From the IMG/VR virus record IMGVR_UViG_3300020183_000388, positions 1-26,849 of that record: a stretch of 26,849 nt of DNA; one strand, 5' to 3'. Below, piece by piece: positions 8,155 through 25,809 of this stretch (its first letter is position 1; every line of letters begins with the position of its first letter). The translations under genes were made by a program, and so were the position numbers. The stretch is from a virus. Under the pieces are notes generated by a model. That model was not told where the DNA came from, ran no database searches, and worked only from the letters and a program-made list of their open reading frames with translations.

Positions 8155-10743
8155 ATGGCAGTCAATACCCAAAAACTTTTACCTCCATCAAAACTGACAA
8201 CAGCAGAAAGAATGTCTGCTTCTTATGACAAGAGAATTGATGATATTCTTAATTTTGAAATAAAAGAAAAACTTATAGATGTTGATAAGTTTTTTAAAAA
8301 AAATATTAAAGATAAGAAAAAAAAGGAAAAAGAAAAGAAAAAAGGAAAGCAGAGAAAAAAGAGAGCAGAAAAAGAAAGGAATTTGGAAACACCTAAAGGT
8401 ATCAAAGGAGTAGAAAAAACAAAATCTTTAATTCCAAAGACTGGAATTTTGGATGCGGTTCAACGATTTGCTACCTTTACATTCTTAGGTTATTTGTTAG
8501 GTAAGTTTGGAGGAGAAACTCCGAAACTTTTAGGAATTCTTAAAAACGTAGGTCCGGTAATTAATACTACAGAAAAAATTATTGGTGGAATTTTTGAAGG
8601 TATTGTTGGATTTATTGATGCTGGATATAAGGCCCACGATCAAATGCGAGCACTCTCCAAAGATATTGGAGGAGAGAAAGCACAAAAAGTTTATGATGAC
8701 TTTAGTTCTAATTTCAATAGATTCTTAAATGCCGTATTAACTTTTGGGTTATCAGAACTCGGTAGAGAAAGTGAAATTCCGCCAGAGAAAAAATCTGGTG
8801 GAGGAATGGTTCGTGGGTATGCAAGAGGGGGTCAATCAACAAGAGGTGGCAGAGTAGTAGGTGGCGCTATTGGAAGAACATTCAAAATACAGAGAGGAGT
8901 TCAAAGGCCACAAAGAGTTCAACCAGAAAAAGTGAGTCCCGGTAAAGATGTTGGTGGCAAATTAAAGATCGAAAAGTTATATCCAAATCCAAAACCAACT
9001 TCTGGAAAACGAACACCAAATCCATACAAAGCACTGACTGGTGTTTCTGAGAGTTTAGATAAAGGTGGGTGGATCGGTGCTTTAATGAGTGCTGGTGTTA
9101 AAGTTGCATTGGGTCAAAAAGTCAATGTAAGAAGAATTGCATCCACAGTTTCGAGTGGCGTTGAATCTTTATCACAGGCACAAGGCAGTAGTTTAGATAC
9201 AGTAAGTCGTTCAATTCTGGGAATGGCTGATGGTGGTCGTGTACCTTTAGAAAAAAATGATCGAATGATGAGTGGTTTGCTTGCAACTTTGATCCAAACC
9301 AGAGTCAACGAAGCACTTAAAAATGTTACTGATGAATTACTTAAAGTTCCTGAAGCAACATCACCAGGAAGGCCTGGTGGAGGCGGAGATCCTGGCGGCG
9401 GTGGTGGTGGAACAAATATTGAGAAGATTAAAATGGGCGATTTTAGTGACGAAGATATTGATGTTCTTGGTAGAATGATTGCAGCAGAGGCAGGTAATCA
9501 ACCTAAACTTGGAAAGGCAGGCGTTCTATCTGTGATTTTAAATCGTTATCGTCTTGCTAAATCTGGTGATCGTGGGTATATGCCACCTGGAAAAAATAAA
9601 GATAATGTAACTTTAAAGGATATCATATATGCTGAAGGTCAGTTTACTCCAATAACAGATGGTAGATTTGATAGAACTTCATCTGCTGCTGGAAAGAACG
9701 CTCTAGATGATGCAATTTCTGCATCTGGAAATGATCCTCAAAAGTTTAAACAAAAACTAATGAAAGATTTAAAGTTGAGTGAAGCTGATGCCGAACTTGT
9801 TGTAAGAGCGACGGCATTCTCTAATCCAAAAATCAGATCAGTAAGACCATTTAATACTCCAGAAGTTGAAGTGGGAGATCATGCATTCCAAGCATCTCCA
9901 TATTCAAGAATAGGATCTTTTCCTGGGGCAATTTCTGCTAACGTTACTAAACTTGAAGGTGAAAGTAAAGTATCAGCAGATATCAAAGATTTTAGAAAAT
10001 TTAGAGCAGCACAATTTGGTGCAAGTGCCGAAAGAAATCCAACAGCAGGAGGTGAATATTATCAAATAAGAGAATTGGGAGTTTATGGTAGAAAAGATTA
10101 TAAAATAAGTCCTCTTGCTGATGACTTGTCATATGAAATTGAAGAGCATTCGGGCGCTGGTCATTATGAAAACCGTGCCTTTGATATTCCAGTTCCAAAT
10201 AGTTCTGCGGAAGGCGATGCAGTTGCTCAATATTGGAGAAGTAAAGGTTATACTGTTATCTGGAAATCTGAGGGACACTACGACCATGTGCATGTGGAAG
10301 TTCCTGCGGATAAAGCAGATCAATTTTTTAAGATAGTTAAAACAGAAAAAACGAAATTAAAAATCAAGAAGAAAAAAGAAGAAAAGACAATAAAATCAAA
10401 TCTTGAGAAGATAGTAAATAGAGTTAAGAAGGAAAAAAAACTTATAGATAAAAGACCTTGGTATGACAAGTTAGGATTGTTTGGTGGTGCAGCTGGAGCA
10501 GCATCCAGAGCATCTATGAGAGCATCAAAAAAACAAGGTGGTGGTTTCGTGGGACCACAAAACAAAAGAAATTATTCCTCACTTTCCATGTATCCATCTT
10601 ACGACGATGGAGGCGGCATGATGGTTGCAATTCAACCAATAATTATTGAAAAACCAGTCGCAACGCCTACAGGAGGAAGTCAAATGATTGCATTCCCAAT
10701 TCCTGTTGGTGTAAATAATAACATGGCCAGTTTAAGTAGGTAA
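8155..10743 (+). CDS. Tape-measure-like tail protein with SleB-type and M15-like peptidoglycan hydrolase domains (862 aa)
   Basis: Order of parts: a Lys/Glu-rich basic stretch (about 45-80); a hydrophobic segment near 100 (FATFTFLGYLLGKFGG); Gly/Arg-rich linkers (GGGMVRGYARGG); a poly-Gly hinge at about 402-420; then two enzyme-like domains. At 430-580 is a Hydrolase_2/SleB-like domain with AAEAG (candidate catalytic Glu), VLSVILNRYR, EGQFTPITDGR and GDHAF. At about 634-718 is an M15-peptidase-like domain with HYENRAFD (H-x6-D) and GHYDHVHVEV (final H-x-H), the expected zinc ligands. It is probably a virion wall-opening enzyme acting on the host peptidoglycan during DNA entry. The start is 1 nt after the previous stop. 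Enzyme activity is inferred from motifs. Confidence 0.7.
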   Translation: MAVNTQKLLPPSKLTTAERMSASYDKRIDDILNFEIKEKLIDVDKFFKKNIKDKKKKEKEKKKGKQRKKRAEKERNLETPKGIKGVEKTKSLIPKTGILDAVQRFATFTFLGYLLGKFGGETPKLLGILKNVGPVINTTEKIIGGIFEGIVGFIDAGYKAHDQMRALSKDIGGEKAQKVYDDFSSNFNRFLNAVLTFGLSELGRESEIPPEKKSGGGMVRGYARGGQSTRGGRVVGGAIGRTFKIQRGVQRPQRVQPEKVSPGKDVGGKLKIEKLYPNPKPTSGKRTPNPYKALTGVSESLDKGGWIGALMSAGVKVALGQKVNVRRIASTVSSGVESLSQAQGSSLDTVSRSILGMADGGRVPLEKNDRMMSGLLATLIQTRVNEALKNVTDELLKVPEATSPGRPGGGGDPGGGGGGTNIEKIKMGDFSDEDIDVLGRMIAAEAGNQPKLGKAGVLSVILNRYRLAKSGDRGYMPPGKNKDNVTLKDIIYAEGQFTPITDGRFDRTSSAAGKNALDDAISASGNDPQKFKQKLMKDLKLSEADAELVVRATAFSNPKIRSVRPFNTPEVEVGDHAFQASPYSRIGSFPGAISANVTKLEGESKVSADIKDFRKFRAAQFGASAERNPTAGGEYYQIRELGVYGRKDYKISPLADDLSYEIEEHSGAGHYENRAFDIPVPNSSAEGDAVAQYWRSKGYTVIWKSEGHYDHVHVEVPADKADQFFKIVKTEKTKLKIKKKKEEKTIKSNLEKIVNRVKKEKKLIDKRPWYDKLGLFGGAAGAASRASMRASKKQGGGFVGPQNKRNYSSLSMYPSYDDGGGMMVAIQPIIIEKPVATPTGGSQMIAFPIPVGVNNNMASLSR

Positions 10744-10747
10744 CGCA

Positions 10748-12070
10748 ATGACTGCAAATATTCAAGCAGGTCCTGGTGAAGGCCAGATTAATATCTTTGA
10801 AATTGTATCTAATTACACTAAAAAAGGAACTGATATTAAAAATGGTATCATTGAACTCATATATTATGAGAGTATTTTAGACCATACAGTGAGAGCAACT
10901 GCAACACTCACCGATACTGGTTATCGAACTGCTGGTGCTGGGGCAGCTGCTGTTGAAGATAGTGATGTTAATTTGACCGTGGGTGAAAAGATAAATTTAA
11001 AGATCACTGATGGTTATGGAACTCAATTATATTTTGATGAGGAACTTGATAACCCCTTTAGACTTTTGCAAGCAAGAAATATACAAGAAAGTGTCAATAA
11101 AATTGTTTATACAATCGACTTAACTTCAACTGAATATCATACAAACGATGCGCTGAAAGCAAGAGTTGTAAAGAGATATGATGGCAAAATTCCAGATAAT
11201 GTAAAGAGTATTCTTCAAAATACTCTCCAGACTAAAAAAGAAATTGATGTCGATGCTGGATTAAATTCTCTTAACTTCACTGGTAAGAGCGAAAAACCAT
11301 TCTATCTTTGCACTTGGTTAGCAAAGAGATGTGTCCCAGATATTCAAAATTCAAAAGGAAAATTAGCAGGTTATTTGTTTTATGAAACTGCAGATGGATT
11401 TAAGTTCAAATCAATCGATAAACTTTTTCAACAAAAACCAAAAAGAAAACTGATCTTCAACAATTTAATTGGCCAAGTTCCACCAGGTTATGATGGAAAG
11501 ATTTTAGATTATTCCTTTGATTCTACATTTAATTTAAAAAAACTTCGTGCAACTGGTGCAATCGGTCAGGCAGAGACAAGGACATTTAATCCTTTGTCTC
11601 ATGAATATGGCAATAAGAATAAAGTGAATTCAAATATTCAATTCAATGAAACAAATACTGGAGGAACTGAGCGGATCAAGTACGGAGATGATCAAAATGA
11701 AACGACAAAAAGATATGTTAAGAATTTGGATGTTGGTGTGCTTCCAACAGGTAAAAAATTGGATGAACAACTGCAGAAGTCTAAGGAGTTGAATTTTGAT
11801 GTCGATGAAGTTCTCATTCAATCTGCAATGAGATATAATAGTCTGTTCGCAATCAAACTCTCTGTTATGATTGCTGGCGACTTCGATATTCATGCTGGAG
11901 ATTTGATTCACTGTGACTTTCCAGAGGTATCTTCAAACGAAACGACTTCTTATAGCAAGAAGAAAAGTGGTATATATATGGTAGCAGATATAGCTCATCG
12001 TATCACGAAGAACAATTGTTTTACATCACTAAATTTGGTTAGAGATTCAATCGGAAGGAAACCGTTCTAA
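10748..12070 (+). CDS. gp27: gp27-like baseplate hub protein
   Basis: This 440-aa protein compares with 391 aa in T4 gp27. It is beta-rich and begins with INIFEIVSNYTKKGTDIKNG followed by LIYYESILDHTVRATATLTD. That beta-barrel opening is typical of gp27/gpD-type hub proteins. Later parts include PFYLCTWLAKRCVPDIQNSK, GYLFYETADGFKFKSIDKL and a final DIHAGDLIHCDFP...YMVADIAHRITKNNCFTSLNLVRD, the shape of a hub barrel end domain. In T4 the gp27 trimer carries the gp5 spike and connects to the tube. It is followed, after one small gene, by the gp5-like gene, consistent with a hub pair. The call rests on pattern and position. Confidence 0.7.
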   Translation: MTANIQAGPGEGQINIFEIVSNYTKKGTDIKNGIIELIYYESILDHTVRATATLTDTGYRTAGAGAAAVEDSDVNLTVGEKINLKITDGYGTQLYFDEELDNPFRLLQARNIQESVNKIVYTIDLTSTEYHTNDALKARVVKRYDGKIPDNVKSILQNTLQTKKEIDVDAGLNSLNFTGKSEKPFYLCTWLAKRCVPDIQNSKGKLAGYLFYETADGFKFKSIDKLFQQKPKRKLIFNNLIGQVPPGYDGKILDYSFDSTFNLKKLRATGAIGQAETRTFNPLSHEYGNKNKVNSNIQFNETNTGGTERIKYGDDQNETTKRYVKNLDVGVLPTGKKLDEQLQKSKELNFDVDEVLIQSAMRYNSLFAIKLSVMIAGDFDIHAGDLIHCDFPEVSSNETTSYSKKKSGIYMVADIAHRITKNNCFTSLNLVRDSIGRKPF

Positions 12071-15943: not shown

Positions 15944-16648
15944 ATGGCTGATACATTTGATTCTAATGGAGAAATTGTATCTCCAACAAAAGTGGATGGA
16001 TTTACTCTCAAACCGGTAGCATCTGGAAAAAACTGCGAAAAATTTGCCGGTGGTTGGGGAAATCAAATGAATGATTTTGAGTATATTTGGTATGGAAATT
16101 TAAATCAAGCAACATATCCTACAGAAGCTTGTACTCCTTATCATCATAGAAGAGCTAAGATTGATTACTTTCATGTCAATAATGATATTACTATTGCTGG
16201 AGATTGCGGAACGGCGAACGTCACTATATTTAAAGGAGCAAGTTTGACTTTGAATGGTATTGTAAGTGCTCATACTGGTTCTTTTGCTGTAAAACCATTT
16301 AATATCCCACATCCAACAAAACCAAACATGAGACTGGTTCATGCATGTTTGGAAGGCCCAGAAAATGGCGTCTATATTCGTGGAAGATTGACAAATAGTA
16401 ATGTGATCGAAGTTCCAGAGTATTGGAGTGGTCTTGTAGATTCAGAGTCAATTACAGTTACTTTAACTCAAATTGGTTCCTCTCAAGATTTAATTGTTGA
16501 TAAAATTGAATGGGGCAAAAAGATTTATATTAAATCTGGTAACGCAAGCAATATTGACTGTTATTATATTGTCAATGCAACCCGTAAAGATGTTGCTCCA
16601 CTTCCAGTGGAAATGGGACAGGATGAAGAGTGGCCCTACAAAGGTTGA
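15944..16648 (+). CDS. Tail structural protein with IPHPTK domain, paralogue 2 (234 aa)
   Basis: Its C-terminal half parallels the preceding gene: FNIPHPTKPNMRLVHACLEG, VYIRGRLTNSNVIEVPEYW, SITVTLTQIGSSQDLIVDKI, NIDCYYIVNA. The N-terminal half is different (GFTLKPVASGKNCEKFAGGW) and holds a beta-repeat (DITIAGDCGTANVTIFKGAS), so the shared domain is attached to different stalks. It is the last gene of the long tail operon. Its TGA stop (16646-16648) lies inside the TTGACA box of the early promoter that follows. Function is inferred as fibre or baseplate decoration. Confidence 0.7.
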   Translation: MADTFDSNGEIVSPTKVDGFTLKPVASGKNCEKFAGGWGNQMNDFEYIWYGNLNQATYPTEACTPYHHRRAKIDYFHVNNDITIAGDCGTANVTIFKGASLTLNGIVSAHTGSFAVKPFNIPHPTKPNMRLVHACLEGPENGVYIRGRLTNSNVIEVPEYWSGLVDSESITVTLTQIGSSQDLIVDKIEWGKKIYIKSGNASNIDCYYIVNATRKDVAPLPVEMGQDEEWPYKG

Positions 16649-16673
16649 CACAATATCTTCATCGTCCTATAAT
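16645..16673 (+). promoter_or_regulatory. Perfect consensus sigma70 promoter opening the early cassette
   Basis: TTGACA at 16645-16650, exactly 17 nt, TATAAT at 16668-16673: a full match to both boxes and the optimal spacing. Initiation near 16680 would leave a leader of roughly 19 nt before the ATG at 16699. It should be recognised by unmodified host RNA polymerase early in infection. The -35 box overlaps the stop codon of the preceding late gene. Confidence 0.85.
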
Positions 16674-16698
16674 ACTAAGGCAATCACAACACAACTCA

Positions 16699-16881
16699 AT
16701 GCAAGATGAATATCTGAGTCGATGCGTCATCGATCCGATCAAGCGATCCATTTATCTCTATTCAAATGAAGGAGCAGAAAAAACAGTTAAATGTGATACT
16801 GTTGAAGAGTTTATGAGTGTTCTGCAGTTTGTTCGAGAAACTGTGGGTGAAGATGTCCTTTCTTATGCAAGTCCTGTATGA
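16699..16881 (+). CDS. Small early hypothetical protein (60 aa)
   Basis: I chose the ATG at 16699, not the in-frame ATG at 16630. The upstream one precedes the promoter -10 box and the expected transcription start near 16680, and its extra N-terminus (MALQRLTQYLHRPI) looks like read-through of non-coding sequence. The protein starts MQDEYLSRCVIDPIKRSIYL and continues with a helical EEFMSVLQFVRETVGED. It looks like a compact alpha/beta protein of unknown function. The stop overlaps the next start as ATGA. First gene of the early cassette. Confidence 0.65.
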   Translation: MQDEYLSRCVIDPIKRSIYLYSNEGAEKTVKCDTVEEFMSVLQFVRETVGEDVLSYASPV

Positions 16882-17033
16882 GACCTGAAACAAGACAGTC
16901 AATGGAGATGTTGTTCCAAGCAAAGTGGAATCTTCCCAAAGCAGCTGCAAATTGTGGATTGACTTCAAAAGAAATGAAAATTACATTTAATGAATACTGT
17001 CGTCTCAATCCACCCACTTATGTGGCGGAATGA
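16878..17033 (+). CDS. Small early protein with helix-turn-helix-like segment (51 aa)
   Basis: ATG at 16878 overlaps the previous stop (ATGA) and the frame closes with TGA at 17031-17033. The sequence starts MRPETRQSMEMLFQAKWNLP and continues KAAANCGLTSKEMKITFNEY. The segment AAANCGLTSKEMKITFNEY has the spacing of a helix-turn-helix (A-x-x-CGLT turn then a recognition-like helix), so DNA binding is possible but only suggested. No named family is recognised. It lies immediately upstream of tRNA-Leu. Confidence 0.6.
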   Translation: MRPETRQSMEMLFQAKWNLPKAAANCGLTSKEMKITFNEYCRLNPPTYVAE

Positions 17034-17040
17034 GTTTTTT

Positions 17041-17123
17041 GGGGCGATGGTGGAATCGGTAGACACACCAGACTTAAAATCTGTTGGGCATTGCCCGTGG
17101 GGGTTCAAGTCCCCCTCGCCCTA
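17041..17123 (+). tRNA. tRNA-Leu (anticodon UAA)
   Basis: 83 nt, with acceptor GGGGCGA/TCGCCCT (first pair G-U), the class II D-arm AATCGGTAGACAC, anticodon stem-loop CAGA-CTTAAAA-TCTG with TAA at positions 34-36, a variable arm GGGCATTGCCC-like, and T arm GGGGG-TTCAAGT-CCCCC. Discriminator base A at 17123; CCA is not encoded. It reads UUA (and UUG by wobble). Confidence 0.95.
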
Positions 17124-17165
17124 TTAGAAGTCACTCTCTAAATATACAAAAGTAGAGCATCTACT

Positions 17166-17435
17166 ATGAAGTACCGCATTGATGCCAGATACGTTTGGTA
17201 CAATCAAGGAACTCAAATTGTTTTAATGTATTTTATAGAAGGTATTCCATTTACTTTTGATGAACTTCCAGACGAATCTATATTTGATCTGGAATTAATA
17301 AATGTGGCAGACAAAGAACGAAGATACGAACCAGATGACTTATACAAAACGTCTCTCTATTTGATTGATGAACAGTGTCATCCTATGTTGTTCGAACTTG
17401 AACTGGAAAATCCAGAAATGTTGCCACAAGATTAA
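17166..17435 (+). CDS. Hypothetical protein between two tRNA genes (89 aa)
   Basis: The protein starts MKYRIDARYVWYNQGTQIVL and continues YFIEGIPFTFDELPDESIFD. It is an acidic, probably alpha/beta protein, ending in the acidic FELELENPEMLPQD. No motif links it to a named family. It is flanked by tRNA-Leu (42 nt upstream) and tRNA-Thr (3 nt downstream), so its transcript must be processed with the tRNAs. A 6-bp hairpin (AGTAGA-GCA-TCTACT, 17151-17165) abuts the start codon and may modulate its initiation or tRNA 3' processing. Function unknown. Confidence 0.7.
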   Translation: MKYRIDARYVWYNQGTQIVLMYFIEGIPFTFDELPDESIFDLELINVADKERRYEPDDLYKTSLYLIDEQCHPMLFELELENPEMLPQD

Positions 17436-17438
17436 TAT

Positions 17439-17510
17439 GCCCTTGTAGCTCAGTGGTAGAGCAATGGTTTTGTAAACCATTTGTCGCAAGTTCAAGTCTT
17501 GTCGGGGGCT
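17439..17510 (+). tRNA. tRNA-Thr (anticodon UGU)
   Basis: 72 nt, with acceptor GCCCTTG pairing with CGGGGGC (two G-U), D-arm GCTC-AGTGGTAGA-GC, anticodon stem ATGGT/ACCAT with loop TTTGTAA (TGT at 34-36), and T arm GCAAG-TTCAAGT-CTTGT. Discriminator T at 17510; CCA is not encoded. It reads ACA and by wobble ACG. Confidence 0.93.
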
Positions 17511-17529
17511 CTGAGTTCTTATAACTCCA

Positions 17530-17688
17530 ATGTCATTAATTTCACAACAAGATCGCATGATGGCCATTGAGGCACTAGAATATTATGTTCAAAAACTTAA
17601 AGACGATAACTGCACTGCTGCCTCTATCACGGCATTCCAAACCCTCCTTAATTGGATCGAGCTGGAGCATTTCAAGCATGAAAATTAA
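17530..17688 (+). CDS. Small hypothetical protein after tRNA-Thr (52 aa)
   Basis: ATG at 17530 to TAA at 17686-17688. The product is helical (MSLISQQDRMMAIEALEYYV, then TAFQTLLNWIELEHFKHEN), with one Cys. No family is recognised. It begins 19 nt after tRNA-Thr and overlaps the next frame by 11 nt (its end shares the GCATGAAAATTAA region), so it is probably co-translated with it. The frame is short, so reality rests on the good fit between genes and helical composition. Confidence 0.55.
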   Translation: MSLISQQDRMMAIEALEYYVQKLKDDNCTAASITAFQTLLNWIELEHFKHEN

Positions 17689-17851
17689 TCTTTGGTACTG
17701 TAAAGATATGAAGCAATGGCGTTGGACATTGACTGATGATAGTCGTCCAATCGTCAAACAAGAATCTGGACAACAACCATATCTTCGTGACGCTATGAAT
17801 GATGTGGCAAATACTGTAGAATACATGATGGAATGTAAACAAGGTGAATGA
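17678..17851 (+). CDS. Small protein immediately upstream of and overlapping the Mom-like gene (57 aa)
   Basis: I chose the ATG at 17678. The longer frame beginning 17585 (MFKNLKTITALLPLS) overlaps the previous gene in full and is unlikely. The product MKINLWYCKDMKQWRWTLTD ... NDVANTVEYMMECKQGE has aromatic strands and a C-terminal helix. It has two cysteines (8 and 53), not a zinc-finger arrangement. Its stop overlaps the next start as ATGA, so translation is probably coupled to the Mom-like gene. This mirrors com-mom of phage Mu in layout, but the sequence is not Com-like. Function unknown. Confidence 0.6.
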   Translation: MKINLWYCKDMKQWRWTLTDDSRPIVKQESGQQPYLRDAMNDVANTVEYMMECKQGE

Positions 17852-18459
17852 AATCTGATTTTTATATTGATAGAGTGAGTAAATCTGATATCAAAGACCT
17901 TCTTTACACTCACCATTATCTAAAAGACGAATCAAAAGATTTCAAGTCTGGTTTCAACTATGGATTATATCGCAAATCATTTACAGACGTTCTTAGATTG
18001 GGGCCCTGTCTTGGTGCTTGCGTCTTTACTGGTCTACCAGTACCTGAAATCGCAGTAGGAGCATTTGGATTAAATCGTGATGAACAACAAGGAATATTTG
18101 AACTCTCAAGACTTTGCGTCGAACCTGTTACGCAGTCACAAGAATATAACATCACTTCTTGGTTTGTATCACGAGCGATTAGACAACTTCGGAAAGATAC
18201 TGAAGTTAAAGCAATCATTTCTTATGCTGATTCAAATCACCATACTGGTATAATTTATCGTGCTTGTAACTTTAAATACGCAGGTCTATCGGATGCAAAA
18301 AAAGATTTCTATTATTCAGACGGAACTAAACACTCTCGTGGAAAAATAAAAGGTTCTGAAGGCAAATGGAAAGATAGAAGTCGCAAACATCGTTATGTAA
18401 TGATCTTTGATAAAAACTTAAATCTCTTGTGGAAAGAACAAAAGTATGGTATAATATAA
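17848..18459 (+). CDS. Mom-like DNA-modification acyltransferase (GNAT fold)
   Basis: This 203-aa protein has landmarks of the Mu Mom family. HHYL near the N-terminus (22-25) is followed by GAFGLN, then FELSRLCVEPVTQSQEYNIT (85-104), SWFVSRAIRQL, KAIISYADSNHHTGIIYRAC (121-140) and NFKYAGLSD. Mom converts adenine in DNA to a carbamoylmethyl-adenine form, which protects phage DNA from restriction. Family members share the LSRL-x-V, (V/I)SYAD and G-x-(I/V)Y-x-A-x-(N)(F/W)-x-Y-x-G pattern. The C-terminal 50 residues are basic (KGSEGKWKDRSRKHRYV), suited to binding DNA. It overlaps the upstream ORF by 4 nt, and a terminator follows within 25 nt. Function in this phage is inferred; an unrelated GNAT activity is the alternative. 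Confidence 0.75.
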   Translation: MKSDFYIDRVSKSDIKDLLYTHHYLKDESKDFKSGFNYGLYRKSFTDVLRLGPCLGACVFTGLPVPEIAVGAFGLNRDEQQGIFELSRLCVEPVTQSQEYNITSWFVSRAIRQLRKDTEVKAIISYADSNHHTGIIYRACNFKYAGLSDAKKDFYYSDGTKHSRGKIKGSEGKWKDRSRKHRYVMIFDKNLNLLWKEQKYGII

Positions 18460-18480
18460 TCTCCGTGTGAAGGAGTGCGG

Positions 18481-18512
18481 AAGAGAAGGTCTAAATAGAT
18501 CTTCTCTTTTTT
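18481..18512 (+). terminator. Rho-independent terminator ending the early cassette
   Basis: AAGAGAAGGTCT (18481-18492) pairs with AGATCTTCTCTT (18497-18508) with one G-U, loop AAAT, and a T-run to 18512. It separates the early cassette from the late fibre gene. Confidence 0.9.
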
Positions 18513-18517
18513 CATGT

Positions 18518-18525
18518 CATAAATA
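18518..18525 (+). promoter_or_regulatory. Late promoter (CATAAATA) for the 1685-aa gene
   Basis: NATAAATA motif between the terminator and the next start, 30 nt upstream of ATG 18556. It would restart transcription with gp55/gp33 after the terminator. Confidence 0.65.
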
Positions 18526-18555: not shown

Positions 18556-21500
18556 ATGGGTCTCTCACGCTTAGATAATTTTCTGAAATCTGTTCGTGGT
18601 ACAATTTTATATGTTGATCCAAGTAGCATTGATGCAACAGACAATATTCAAAATCAGGGCAATTCATTAGCAAGACCCTTCAGAACAATTCAGAGAGCTC
18701 TTGTAGAATCAGCAAGATTCTCCTATCAGCGCGGGGCCAATAATGATAGATTCGGTAAAACAACAATTCTCGTATATCCCGGCGATCATATCATTGATAA
18801 CCGTCCAGGATGGATTCCAGATGGTGCAAATAATTTCAGAAGAAGAACTGGTGCAACATCAAATGATTTGAGTGAGTGGGGATTAAGCACAGTTTTTGAT
18901 TTAACTGCGGAAAATAATACACTTTACAAGTTAAACAGTATTCACGGTGGGGTAATTGTTCCACGAGGAACTTCTATTGTTGGTATGGATTTGAGAAAAA
19001 CAAGAATCCGTCCAACTTATATTCCAAATCCAGAAAATGATGACATTGAAAGATCTGCAATCTTTAGAATCACGGGTGGTTGCTATTTCTGGCAATTTTC
19101 TATTCTTGATGCAGATCCAAACGGAAACTGCTATAAAGATTATACGAGTAACATTTTTGTTCCCAATTTCTCTCACCACAAATTATCTTGCTTTGAATAT
19201 GCTGATGGTGTAAATGATGTTGATATCAATGATGCATTCTTGACATATAAAACAGATCGAACAGATCTGGATATGTACTATGAAAAGGTTGGGATCTGTT
19301 ATGGATCTATCAGTGGTAGAGAAATCTTTGATGATTATCCATCGACTGATCAAGATTTTGAGCCCGTTATTGACGAATATCGTATCGTTGGCTCAAGAGG
19401 TGCTGAGGTTGGGATTACCAGTATTCGTGCCGGTGATGGAGTTATTGCAACTACAACAATTACAGTGACTCTAGAAGAGTCATTTCCAGAATTGAATGTG
19501 GACACTCCAATCACAATTCAAGGTATTTCCGCAGACGGTTATGATGGCAAATATGTTGTTTATGAATCAATAGATAGCACAACTCTGACCTATAAGGTTC
19601 AAAATGTTCCTGCAAATGCTTTGCCAACAACAGCAGGGGCAACGTTAAATATCAATGTTGATACTGTAACCTCAGCATCACCATATATTTTCAATGTTTC
19701 TGCACGTTCTGTGTATGGAATGTGTGGGATGCTTGCAGATGGTAACAAAGCATCTGGATTTAAATCAATGGTTGTTGCTCAATTCACCGGAATTGGACTT
19801 CAGAAAGATGATAATGCATTTGTCAAATATGATTCTGCAACTGGTCAATATGAGGACTCCACAACCGTTACAAATCTGAGCACAGACTCAAGAGCTATCT
19901 ATAAACCAGCGTATGAAAATTTCCATATCAAAGCAGTTAATGATTCATATATTCAGATCGTATCTGTTTTTGCCATTGGTTATGCAAATCACTTTGAAGT
20001 TGATAATGGTGGAGATTTTTCGATTAATAACTCCAATTCCAACTTTGGAGCAAGAGCTTTAATTGCAAAAGGATTCCGAAAGGATGCATTTGCAAAAGAT
20101 GATATTGGTTATATTACTCATATTATTTCACCACAAGAAAATCAAGCGAGCGAAAAAAATGTATCATTCTTAAGTCTTGACCGTACAAATACCGTAGGAA
20201 TTGGTTCGACCGATAGACTTTACCTATATCAGAAAACAAATCAGAATGATTTACCAGAAAATGTTATTGATGGATACCGTTTTGGTGCAAGAATTGCTGA
20301 TAGATTATATTTACAAGTTACATCAAGTGGTATAAGCACAGAATATTCGGCAAGAATTGTTATGCCGAATACTACAATTTCTTATGAAAAGTCACACACA
20401 GTTGGAAAATCACTTGTTGGAATTAATAGTATTGCATCAAATACAATTACATTAACATCCAATCATACTTTTGCAAATGGCGAAACAATTCGTATAATCA
20501 GTGATAATGGACATCTCCCCGATGGTCTGAATGCAAACCAAATTTACTATGCAATTACTTCTGGAATCGGTGCAAATCAACTTAGGATTGCACAATCTTT
20601 GACAGATGCGATCAATACAAATCCACTCATAATCAATACAAAAGGTGGTGTGCTCAAAGTTGTAAGTAGAGTATCTGATAAGAATTCGGGAGATATTGGT
20701 CATCCTATAGGATTTGATACTACAAACTCACAATGGTATGTAAATGTTGCTTCTGCATCCACAGAAAACACAATTTATTCTCTATTGAATACAACTTATA
20801 CAGAAACAACGACACCAAGAACATATATTAAGAGAACACCAGATAATAGAGGCATAACAGAGACAGTTTATCGTGTTCGCTATGTCATTCCAAAGGATTC
20901 TCCAACGGTTGCAAGACAACCAATTGATGGATATATTTTACAGGTTTCAAATGATACTCTTGGAATTAGTGCAACTGAAATTCAAAAGTATTTCAGTACT
21001 TCTTCCGCAACACTTTCAAACACTACAGAGCTAAGAAATCCGGGATTTATTGCAACCTGCAGTTATAGTTCAGGCACTGCAAGTATTATTACTGAACTTC
21101 CACATAATTTAGTTATTGGATCTCAAGTTGAAATCTTGAATGTCAAGAGTACTAACAATCCTACTGGTATTGCTAATTCATTTTTTAATGGTACATTTAC
21201 AGTCACAGGAATCAGTAGCACAAAGCATTTCAGTTATACTCTTTCTAATAATCCAGGCAATTTCCAAAGTGATGTTAATACAAGAAACATAAATCTTCCT
21301 CACTTCAAGAGAAAAAGAACAAATAACACTTATCAAGTTTATAGAGGTGTTGAATTACAGAAGTATGAGAGTAATGTGCAAGATGGTATCTATCATCTCA
21401 CTTTAGTTGAGAATTCAATTTCACCAACAGTTTCTCCATTTACAAACTTCAAATTATCTCAACCAATTAACAATCTGTATCCACAGACAAATAGAGATAA

Positions 21501-23647: not shown

Positions 23648-25333
23648 ATGTCCGTAAATAAGAATTTTATCATTAAAAACGGTCTTGAAGTTCGCAACGG
23701 TTTAATCTTTACTGATGTAGCAAAAGCAAATGTCGGCATAGGTAGCACCAATCTCAGTGTTCTCTATAAGTTTCACGTTGTTGGTGGTATTGGTGCCACC
23801 TCTTTAACTGTAACTGGAGTTACAACTACAACCTCCGCAGTTATTACTACCTCCGCAGTTGTTGGTTCTGCTGTAACAATTAATTCGTCAGGAGTTGGTG
23901 CAAATAATTTAAATGTTAGTGGTATTGTAACATCCTCCTCATATTATGTTGGAACCACAACGGTATTCAATACTGTCAGTGGGCAACTTACTCTTGCTGG
24001 TATTCAGACAATTGATTCAACAACAAAAGCGTCTTTGGAAAGAGAATTAGCTTTAGATCCAAATAACTTTAATAGTTTAAATGTTCAGGGCGGCATATCA
24101 ACTTTAGGTAGTGTTAAAATAACATCTGGAATTATAACTGCCGTAAGTGGTGTGATAACTTATTTTGGTGATGGTTCTGGTCTGACTAACACTTCTCCAG
24201 GTCCAGCAGGGTCTGTAAATAATGTTCAGTATAATAACGGTTCGGTAACCGCAGGTTCAGATAATTTTGTATTCACGGGAACTAATGTCGGCATCGGAAC
24301 CACAAATCCAGGAGCAAAACTTGATGTTGCAGGTGATGTAAGACTTTCTAGTCCTGACGCGGAAATTGAATTCAACACTGGTGGTGCAAGGTTAAAAGGA
24401 AGAAGTAATGCACTTTCTATTCATACTGGTTCTGGATTAGATAGTGAGGCAAGTGAACAGATAAGAATTAATAATACTGGTGTTGGCATAGGAACCACAA
24501 ACCCAACATCAAAACTACATGTTATTGGTGATGGTAGATTTAGTGGTGTTGTCACTGCAACATCTTTTCACGGAGACGGTACAAATATAACAAATGTTGG
24601 TGCAAGTCTGAACGCAGGAAGTGGAACACAAAATATTCTTCTTACTAGTATTACAAGTGGAGTTTTAACTTCAGTTTCAATTGATACAACACAACTGCAG
24701 TGGAATCACAATACTAATACATTAAACACTACAAATATAGATTTAACTGATAACTTATTTGTTACTACTGGCATCTCAAGTCTTAGCGCCACTACTGCTA
24801 CTGCATTAAATGTATCAGGTATTTCAACCTTTGTTGGTATTACCACTAGTACCTCAACTCTCTTTGCAAATCAATTAAGTGTTGCTGGAGTCTCTACCTT
24901 TGCTGGTATAACCACAGTTACTGGTACTACTCTATTTGCAAAACAATTAAATGTATCAGGTATTTCAACCTTTGTTGGTATCGGGACATTCGAATCAACA
25001 TTATTTGCCAATCAGGTAAGCGTAACAGGTATTGTGACAGCTGCAGATTTTAACTCAACATCTGATGCAAATCTCAAACAAGACATTCAAACGTTTAAAA
25101 GTGCATTAGATATCGTATCAGAACTTCGTGGTGTTAGGTTTAACTGGAAGAAAGACAATAAACCATCTGTAGGTGTGATTGCACAAGAACTTGAAGAAAT
25201 TCTTCCTGAACTTGTGAGTGATAGCAGTCCCAAGACAGTTAATTACAACGGCATCATTGGTGTTCTGATTGAAGCAGTCAAGGAATTGTCTGAAGAAGTA
25301 AAATCATTAAAAAATCAAATAAATAATCAATAA
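23648..25333 (+). CDS. Tail fibre with C-terminal S74 intramolecular chaperone domain (561 aa)
   Basis: The shaft is built of short beta repeats, for example LNVSGISTFVGITT, NVGIGTTNPGAKLDVAGDVR, VGIGTTNPTSKLHVIGDGRF and FANQLSVAGVSTFAGITT, typical of trimeric phage fibres. The last 85 or so residues form an S74 peptidase/chaperone domain: STSDANLKQDIQTFKSALDI, LRGVRFNWKKDNKPSVGVIA, QELEEILPELV and VNYNGIIGVLIEAVKELSEE. The Ser-Asp-x-x-x-Lys motif at its start is the usual self-cleavage site. This domain trimerises the fibre and is then released. The long coiled tail EEVKSLKNQIN fits. It follows its own late promoter with a GAGG-like ribosome site. Confidence 0.85.
   Translation: MSVNKNFIIKNGLEVRNGLIFTDVAKANVGIGSTNLSVLYKFHVVGGIGATSLTVTGVTTTTSAVITTSAVVGSAVTINSSGVGANNLNVSGIVTSSSYYVGTTTVFNTVSGQLTLAGIQTIDSTTKASLERELALDPNNFNSLNVQGGISTLGSVKITSGIITAVSGVITYFGDGSGLTNTSPGPAGSVNNVQYNNGSVTAGSDNFVFTGTNVGIGTTNPGAKLDVAGDVRLSSPDAEIEFNTGGARLKGRSNALSIHTGSGLDSEASEQIRINNTGVGIGTTNPTSKLHVIGDGRFSGVVTATSFHGDGTNITNVGASLNAGSGTQNILLTSITSGVLTSVSIDTTQLQWNHNTNTLNTTNIDLTDNLFVTTGISSLSATTATALNVSGISTFVGITTSTSTLFANQLSVAGVSTFAGITTVTGTTLFAKQLNVSGISTFVGIGTFESTLFANQVSVTGIVTAADFNSTSDANLKQDIQTFKSALDIVSELRGVRFNWKKDNKPSVGVIAQELEEILPELVSDSSPKTVNYNGIIGVLIEAVKELSEEVKSLKNQINNQ
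24805..24981 (+). repeat. 36-bp exact direct repeat in the fibre shaft
   Basis: Identical 36-nt copies at 24805-24840 and 24946-24981 (beginning ATTAAATGTATCAGG), exactly 141 nt (47 codons) apart. They encode LNVSGISTFVGI. Between them is a diverged related unit. The exact identity suggests recent duplication or gene conversion within the shaft. Confidence 0.9.
25318..25325 (+). promoter_or_regulatory. Late promoter (AATAAATA) before the first small paralogue
   Basis: NATAAATA motif in the last codons of the S74 fibre gene, 17 nt upstream of ATG 25343. This is closer to its start than the other late promoters in the window. An AGAAAG stretch precedes the ATG as a weak ribosome site. Confidence 0.4.
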
Positions 25334-25342
25334 AAAAGAAAG

Positions 25343-25753
25343 ATGACAATTAAAATTAATGGAACAGATATTATTGATCAAAATAGAAATATTTTAACAG
25401 CTATTTTGAAAAATTATACTGAAACTATACATAATTTAGGTGCTCTTTCTGCCGGTACTACAAACATTAATATGGCAAATGGTACTGTTTTTACAGCAAC
25501 ATTGCCAACATCAGGAACAGTAACCTTTACGTTCACAACTGGTGGTGTGAGCGGTGCTGCAAGTTTTCTATTAATTTTAACAAATGCTGGATCTGGATCT
25601 GCAACTCTTGCATGGCCCGCATCTGTAAAGTACACTGGAGGAACTGTTCCTGATAGAACAACAATTGTAAGTAGAACCGATATATGGTCTTTTAATACGC
25701 TTGATAATGGTTCAAATTGGTATGGAAACATTGCCCTCTTTAACTTCGCATAA
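25343..25753 (+). CDS. Small tail/fibre-associated structural protein, paralogue A (136 aa)
   Basis: The N-terminus MTIKINGTDIIDQNRNIL is a motif often seen at the start of small phage fibre proteins. A beta-rich core follows (TATLPTSGTVTFTFTTGG, SFLLILTNAGSGSATLAWP), then YTGGTVPDRTTIVSRTDIW and NTLDNGSNWYGNIALF. This resembles adhesin-like beta-sandwich modules in marine phage tail genes. It is closely related to the next gene at both ends. No chaperone or enzyme motif. The stop TAA lies in a CATAAATA sequence that runs into the next start. The exact role is not established. Confidence 0.7.
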   Translation: MTIKINGTDIIDQNRNILTAILKNYTETIHNLGALSAGTTNINMANGTVFTATLPTSGTVTFTFTTGGVSGAASFLLILTNAGSGSATLAWPASVKYTGGTVPDRTTIVSRTDIWSFNTLDNGSNWYGNIALFNFA

Positions 25754-25809
25754 ATATGACAATTAAAATTAATGGAACAGATATTATTGATCAAAGTAGA
25801 AATATTTTA
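25343..25809 (+). repeat. Near-identical 5' ends of the two small paralogous genes (54 bp)
   Basis: 25343-25396 and 25756-25809 match in 53 of 54 positions (only A/G differs at the 41st base); both begin ATGACAATTAAAATTAATGG. Beyond that the genes diverge quickly, so the identity is confined to the N-terminal module. Confidence 0.9.

Follow-up and report, generated by a model that had tools for sequence, protein, structure and literature searches.

A candidate Mom-family DNA-modification gene at the end of an early-type operon in a T4-like cyanophage

The mom locus and its transcription signals

The window (the whole stretch of DNA analysed here, 26,849 nucleotides) is a 26.8-kb virus record carrying T4-like cyanophage genes, among them gp32 (PF08804) at 1039 and gp53 (PF11246) at 1972. 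Its baseplate, tail and fibre genes are ordered as in the Synechococcus phages S-SM2, Bellamy and SynMITS9220M01, in agreement with the original prediction of a cyanomyovirus. The ORF of interest, mom, begins with ATG on the + strand and has its coding part at 17848-18456 (Table 1). The four landmarks from which a Mom-like enzyme had been predicted are all present: HHYL (residues 22-25), FELSRL (84-89), SYAD (125-128) and GIIYRACNFKYAG (134-146); in an alignment they coincide with columns conserved among Mom proteins. Compared with ten close relatives, mom has a dN/dS ratio of approximately 0.16-0.29 in nine cases and a saturated dS in the tenth. mom is a real gene under purifying selection, and the low dN/dS and the Mom-family profile match described below place ORF and landmarks beyond chance.

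Table 1. Coordinates of mom and of the features of its predicted operon in the window.
Feature	Coordinates	Strand	Basis
sigma-70-type promoter TTGACA-17-TATAAT, 12/12	16645..16673	+	conserved in relatives
first operon gene, PF23966 DUF7294	16696..16881	+	Pfam
51-aa ORF, PHROG 1308	16878..17033	+	PHROG
tRNA-Leu (TAA)	17040..17124	+	ARAGORN
89-aa ORF, PHROG 4134	17166..17435	+	PHROG; conserved in relatives
tRNA-Thr (TGT)	17439..17511	+	ARAGORN
52-aa ORF, same operon	17530..17688	+	position conserved in many relatives
57-aa ORF, PHROG 2818, general cyanophage gene	17678..17851	+	PHROG, no zinc ribbon
mom: predicted Mom-family (GNAT fold) DNA adenine-modification enzyme, 203 aa	17848..18459	+	PF25680, PHROG 1384, model vs 8bv8, invariant residues
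predicted intrinsic terminator ending mom operon, 13-bp stem and U run	18480..18512	+	RNA fold z -3.2
T4-type late promoter motif CATAAATA	18518..18525	+	pattern scan; matches S-SM2, Bellamy; upstream of tail fibre gene at 18556

Between the promoter and mom, a distance of 1.2 kb, lie four short ORFs, the 57-aa ORF and the two tRNA genes. A promoter score of at least 10/12 is found in 39 of 40 distinct relatives, approximately 50 nt upstream of the same DUF7294 gene and with spacer sequences that differ among relatives; elsewhere, 38 of 998 stretches of 110 nt reach that score, and the promoter itself may be among the 38. In S-SM2 the operon, which lacks mom, is closed by a hairpin (z -5.1) equivalent to the mom terminator. 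mom is thus predicted to be the last gene of an operon that has a host-type promoter, conserved among relatives, and a terminator of its own.

The sole late motif near mom lies downstream of the gene and the conserved sigma-70-type promoter upstream of it; a second promoter of the same kind, scoring 11/12, is found at 967-995, just upstream of gp32. Because of these three features, early co-expression of mom with the replication genes is plausible. The original prediction had envisaged early expression from a consensus promoter: the promoter is present, perfect and conserved, while expression, and cotranscription over the intervening 1.2 kb, are read from sequence only. Elsewhere in the window the late motif ATAAATA occurs twice at 25319-25800, approximately 430 bp apart and each time followed by a near-identical stretch, ATGACAATTAAAATTAATGGAACAGATATTATTGAT, which suggests that a small late gene has been duplicated in tandem.

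The arrangement upstream of mom had also been likened to that of com and mom in phage Mu. A small ORF does overlap the start of mom in the window, by 4 nt (ATGA), as would suit a Mu-like module in which the 57-aa ORF acts as translational activator; the overlap in Mu, however, is 50 nt. Mu Com is a zinc ribbon (PF10122), and a Pfam search of the 57-aa ORF found neither a zinc ribbon nor PF10122. This ORF occurs in 82 records of cultured cyanophages, all without the window's mom clade, and a small ORF of the same size occupies the same place in the mom-less loci of Bellamy and S-SM2. Nor is the overlap conserved: in most relatives the ORF does not overlap mom, and in most loci with the window's gene order it ends approximately 14 nt before it. 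Together these data rule out the 57-aa ORF as Com, and we regard a com-mom module in the window as highly improbable.

Family membership, fold and active site

Mom is a GNAT acting on N6 of adenine (PMC7824862). In a profile search, PF25680 (Mom) matched residues 4-194 of the ORF (E 3.4e-22; 79.5 bits against a cut-off of 27.1); with positions 1-194 of 202 covered, this is a full-length match above the curated cut-off. PHROG 1384 (Mom-like DNA modification protein) matched with E 1.8e-32, and authentic Mu Mom (from AF083977) was assigned to the same two families. The Pfam search of the ORF returned no acetyltransferase family other than Mom, and the NCBIfam search of the ORF no match.

Pairwise similarity to Mu Mom is weak: identity is approximately 20-25%, and a single BLASTP comparison gave 25% over 112 residues (E 1e-4). 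Searching the PDB with the window sequence by itself yielded no significant match, and an alignment profile was needed. A profile from 66 relatives found Mu Mom (8bv8) alone, with E 6.2e-50, a value that overstates how well the clade alone finds 8bv8 because the alignment takes in four Mu-type Moms. Two further families, PHROG 559 and PHROG 3339 (named HNH or homing endonuclease), match window positions 18052-18420 (residues 69-191) more weakly, which suggests that some of their proteins carry a Mom-like C-terminal domain.

The AlphaFold2 model of the 203-aa protein (pLDDT 87.3, pTM 0.83) has 8bv8, the crystal structure of Mu Mom, as its best PDB match by Foldseek (E 1.1e-9). Hundreds of GNAT chains match the model, and the same fold would be seen in an ordinary acetyltransferase acting on protein, tRNA or a small molecule and leaving DNA unmodified. 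However, 8bv8 ranks first by both Foldseek and VIA-align, the latter aligning 177 residues with Z 18.1, while the GNAT chains next in rank reach 13.8. Since sequence profile and structure both place Mu Mom clearly ahead of all other GNATs, and Mom is the sole Pfam acetyltransferase family matched, we give an ordinary acetyltransferase very little credence.

The Mom active site was compared in an alignment of the window protein with ten named phage Mom proteins, Mu Mom included. At sixteen positions the window protein, Mu Mom and the nine others have the same residue: H23, Y24, G56, E85, L86, R88, S104, S125, A127, D128, G134, Y137, A139, N141, G146 and H162. Counterparts in the 231-aa Mu numbering include H48, Y49, E98, R101, S114, D139, Y149 and H173. 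The sequence of 8bv8 departs from Mu Mom at S114, which is replaced by Ala, and the title of the entry names an inactive mutant, S124A. Because residue numbers in 8bv8 are those of Mu Mom plus ten (running to 241), S124 of the title is S114, the serine aligned with S104 of the window protein. On the strength of the profile matches, of 8bv8 as the closest fold and of the aligned invariant residues, S104 among them, the assignment to the Mom family of enzymes is supported, as had been predicted from the landmarks.

Relatives, insertion sites and spread

A scan of IMG/VR found at least 587 stretches encoding relatives of the window Mom. Among the best 80 of these, approximately 60 have all or most of the gene order that makes up the window's slot: DUF7294 gene, 51-aa ORF, tRNA-Leu, 89-aa ORF, tRNA-Thr, small ORFs, mom and tail fibre. 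About 19 of the 80 are without this neighbourhood. Two loci read in detail, from other T4-like phages, define a second slot with mom between gp32 and a gp53-like gene, and in the remaining loci of these 19 or so the spacing of neighbouring ORFs is mostly alike. This second slot holds no mom in the window, where gp32 is directly followed by gp53 (junction at 1971/1972). The two slots interleave on a protein tree, requiring at least three to four changes; mom therefore appears to have moved between slots, although this was a quick tree and its branch details are tentative.

In S-SM2, Bellamy and SynMITS9220M01 the last small ORF is 57-101 nt from the fibre gene, whereas in the window 704 nt separate the fibre gene from the 57-aa ORF. 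The sequence that follows mom (GTGTGAAGGAGTGCG, the hairpin with its U run, and CATAAATAATCCATAAC) has similar counterparts in S-SM2 and Bellamy, which lack mom. It follows from this empty-site comparison that mom was either added in the window or lost in the mom-less phages, between the last small ORF and the terminator. Because these cultured cyanophages possess the same locus without the gene, we judge mom to be an accessory gene at the end of the operon.

In some loci ORFs bearing NUMOD3, probably homing endonucleases, abut or overlap the start of mom (L007:3416-3979, L013:3340-4008, L033:227-1006 and L037:647-1363). Because such ORFs are confined to some loci, the others having 2OG-oxygenases or nothing at that place, hitch-hiking with homing endonucleases was rejected as a general route of mom spread. 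Only three relatives were found in bacterial genomes, all in MAG contigs of uncertain origin. One 153-kb cyanophage-like contig encodes two Moms (L165:2519-3190; genome of L007, G001:C1:137108-137704), of which one belongs to the window's clade and the other to that of S-SSM7 and Stickynote.

Mom-like proteins have been annotated in many phages, among them the cultured cyanomyovirus S-SSM7 (YP_004324330). The S-SSM7 protein is likewise of the Mom family and its gene lies beside tRNA genes, but it shares 29% identity with the window Mom, is located near psbA rather than in the tRNA/tail-fibre slot, and branches with the Moms of Stickynote, PMBT2 and a Vibrio phage (phages of Corynebacterium, Enterococcus and Vibrio). 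The nearest cultured relative of the window Mom, with 50% identity, is an ORF of Roseobacter phage CRP-212 (MZ892988, approximately 10345-11274), in which Mom and a MazG-like domain form a single in-frame fusion of approximately 310 aa (L083:3998-4927). The record annotates this gene only as MazG, with a start inside Mom, and so misses the N-terminal Mom part. ORFs of 291-313 aa, similar in length to the fusion, occur in about a dozen IMG/VR relatives (L127-L139), and fusions of Mom domains to endonuclease domains are known from jumbo phages (PMC7824862). The clade of the window Mom is absent from the cultured cyanophage records of the collection, though records very near the window may be missing there; a distant blastn of one clade member gave no match, and none of the papers searched pairs 'Mom-like' with cyanophage or Synechococcus. 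The window Mom is a new clade within an established family. The enzyme as such is already known, but its setting, an early-type gene cluster of T4-like cyanophages without com, the control gene of Mu, is little described.

Proposed function

The best-studied Mom tags adenines in phage DNA, which host restriction enzymes then cannot cut. Mu Mom reportedly binds acetyl-CoA and iron, and is said to make N6-carbamoylmethyl adenine. The window Mom is like Mu Mom (8bv8, AAF01131) in Pfam family, GNAT fold and aligned invariant residues; it differs in sequence and in having no Com zinc ribbon upstream. Mu mom, moreover, has an annotated late promoter, whereas the window gene belongs to a sigma-70 early-type operon of a lytic T4-like phage.

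By analogy with Mu, we consider it very probable that the window encodes a Mom enzyme that modifies phage DNA adenines at N6 with a carbamoylmethyl (methylcarbamoyl) group and is expressed early and free of Com from an accessory gene that occupies two slots in T4-like cyanophages, that of the window and one after gp32. Host restriction endonucleases would then be unable to cut progeny genomes. Transcription would be early, by host RNA polymerase, translation would proceed without the Com activator, and replicating DNA would be modified, as opposed to only late-packaged DNA in Mu.

Because identity to Mu Mom is so low, acyl group and target sequence could differ from those of Mu. A Mom-fold enzyme that modifies DNA differently, with another acyl or aminoacyl group, base or recognition sequence, would accord with that divergence, with the separate position of the clade in the tree, and with conserved stretches specific to the clade and absent from Mu (e.g., KDESKDFKSG, FTGLPVPE and KHSRG). 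The clade does not, however, differ from Mu or from other phage Moms in the catalytic-core columns, and we deem such an enzyme unlikely, N6 carbamoylmethylation of adenine being the preferred reading. The Mu-type site, (C/G)A(C/G)NY, occurs at 0.93 of its expected frequency in the window and at 0.89-0.90 in mom-less relatives. Since depletion is no stronger than in phages without mom, it was rejected as a sign of selection, and the sequence bears no trace of restriction pressure at Mu-type sites.

A broader reading is possible but doubtful: that the window Mom represents a distinct and widespread cyanophage clade, Com-free and driven by early host-type promoters, acting on replicating DNA, possibly with another group or target, and moving between fixed slots.

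Base hypermodification has a precedent in the same T4-like group. In Synechococcus phage S-B43, whose locus is a mom-less counterpart of the window's, CmoA, CmoX and CmoY act in cytosine carboxymethylation by a C5-methyltransferase homologue (PMC12783734). A CmoX-like C5-cytosine methylase was sought in 12 mom-bearing records, which may all be fragments, and none was found.

The apparent independence of Com means that direct expression of this Mom in laboratory E. coli may be possible. With at least 587 relatives in IMG/VR, the data suggest that hypermodified adenine is a common feature of uncultured T4-like cyanophages, the phage group in which cytosine hypermodification has been shown in S-B43. 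The implication would be that cyanophages face real pressure from restriction or from another defence that reads adenines.
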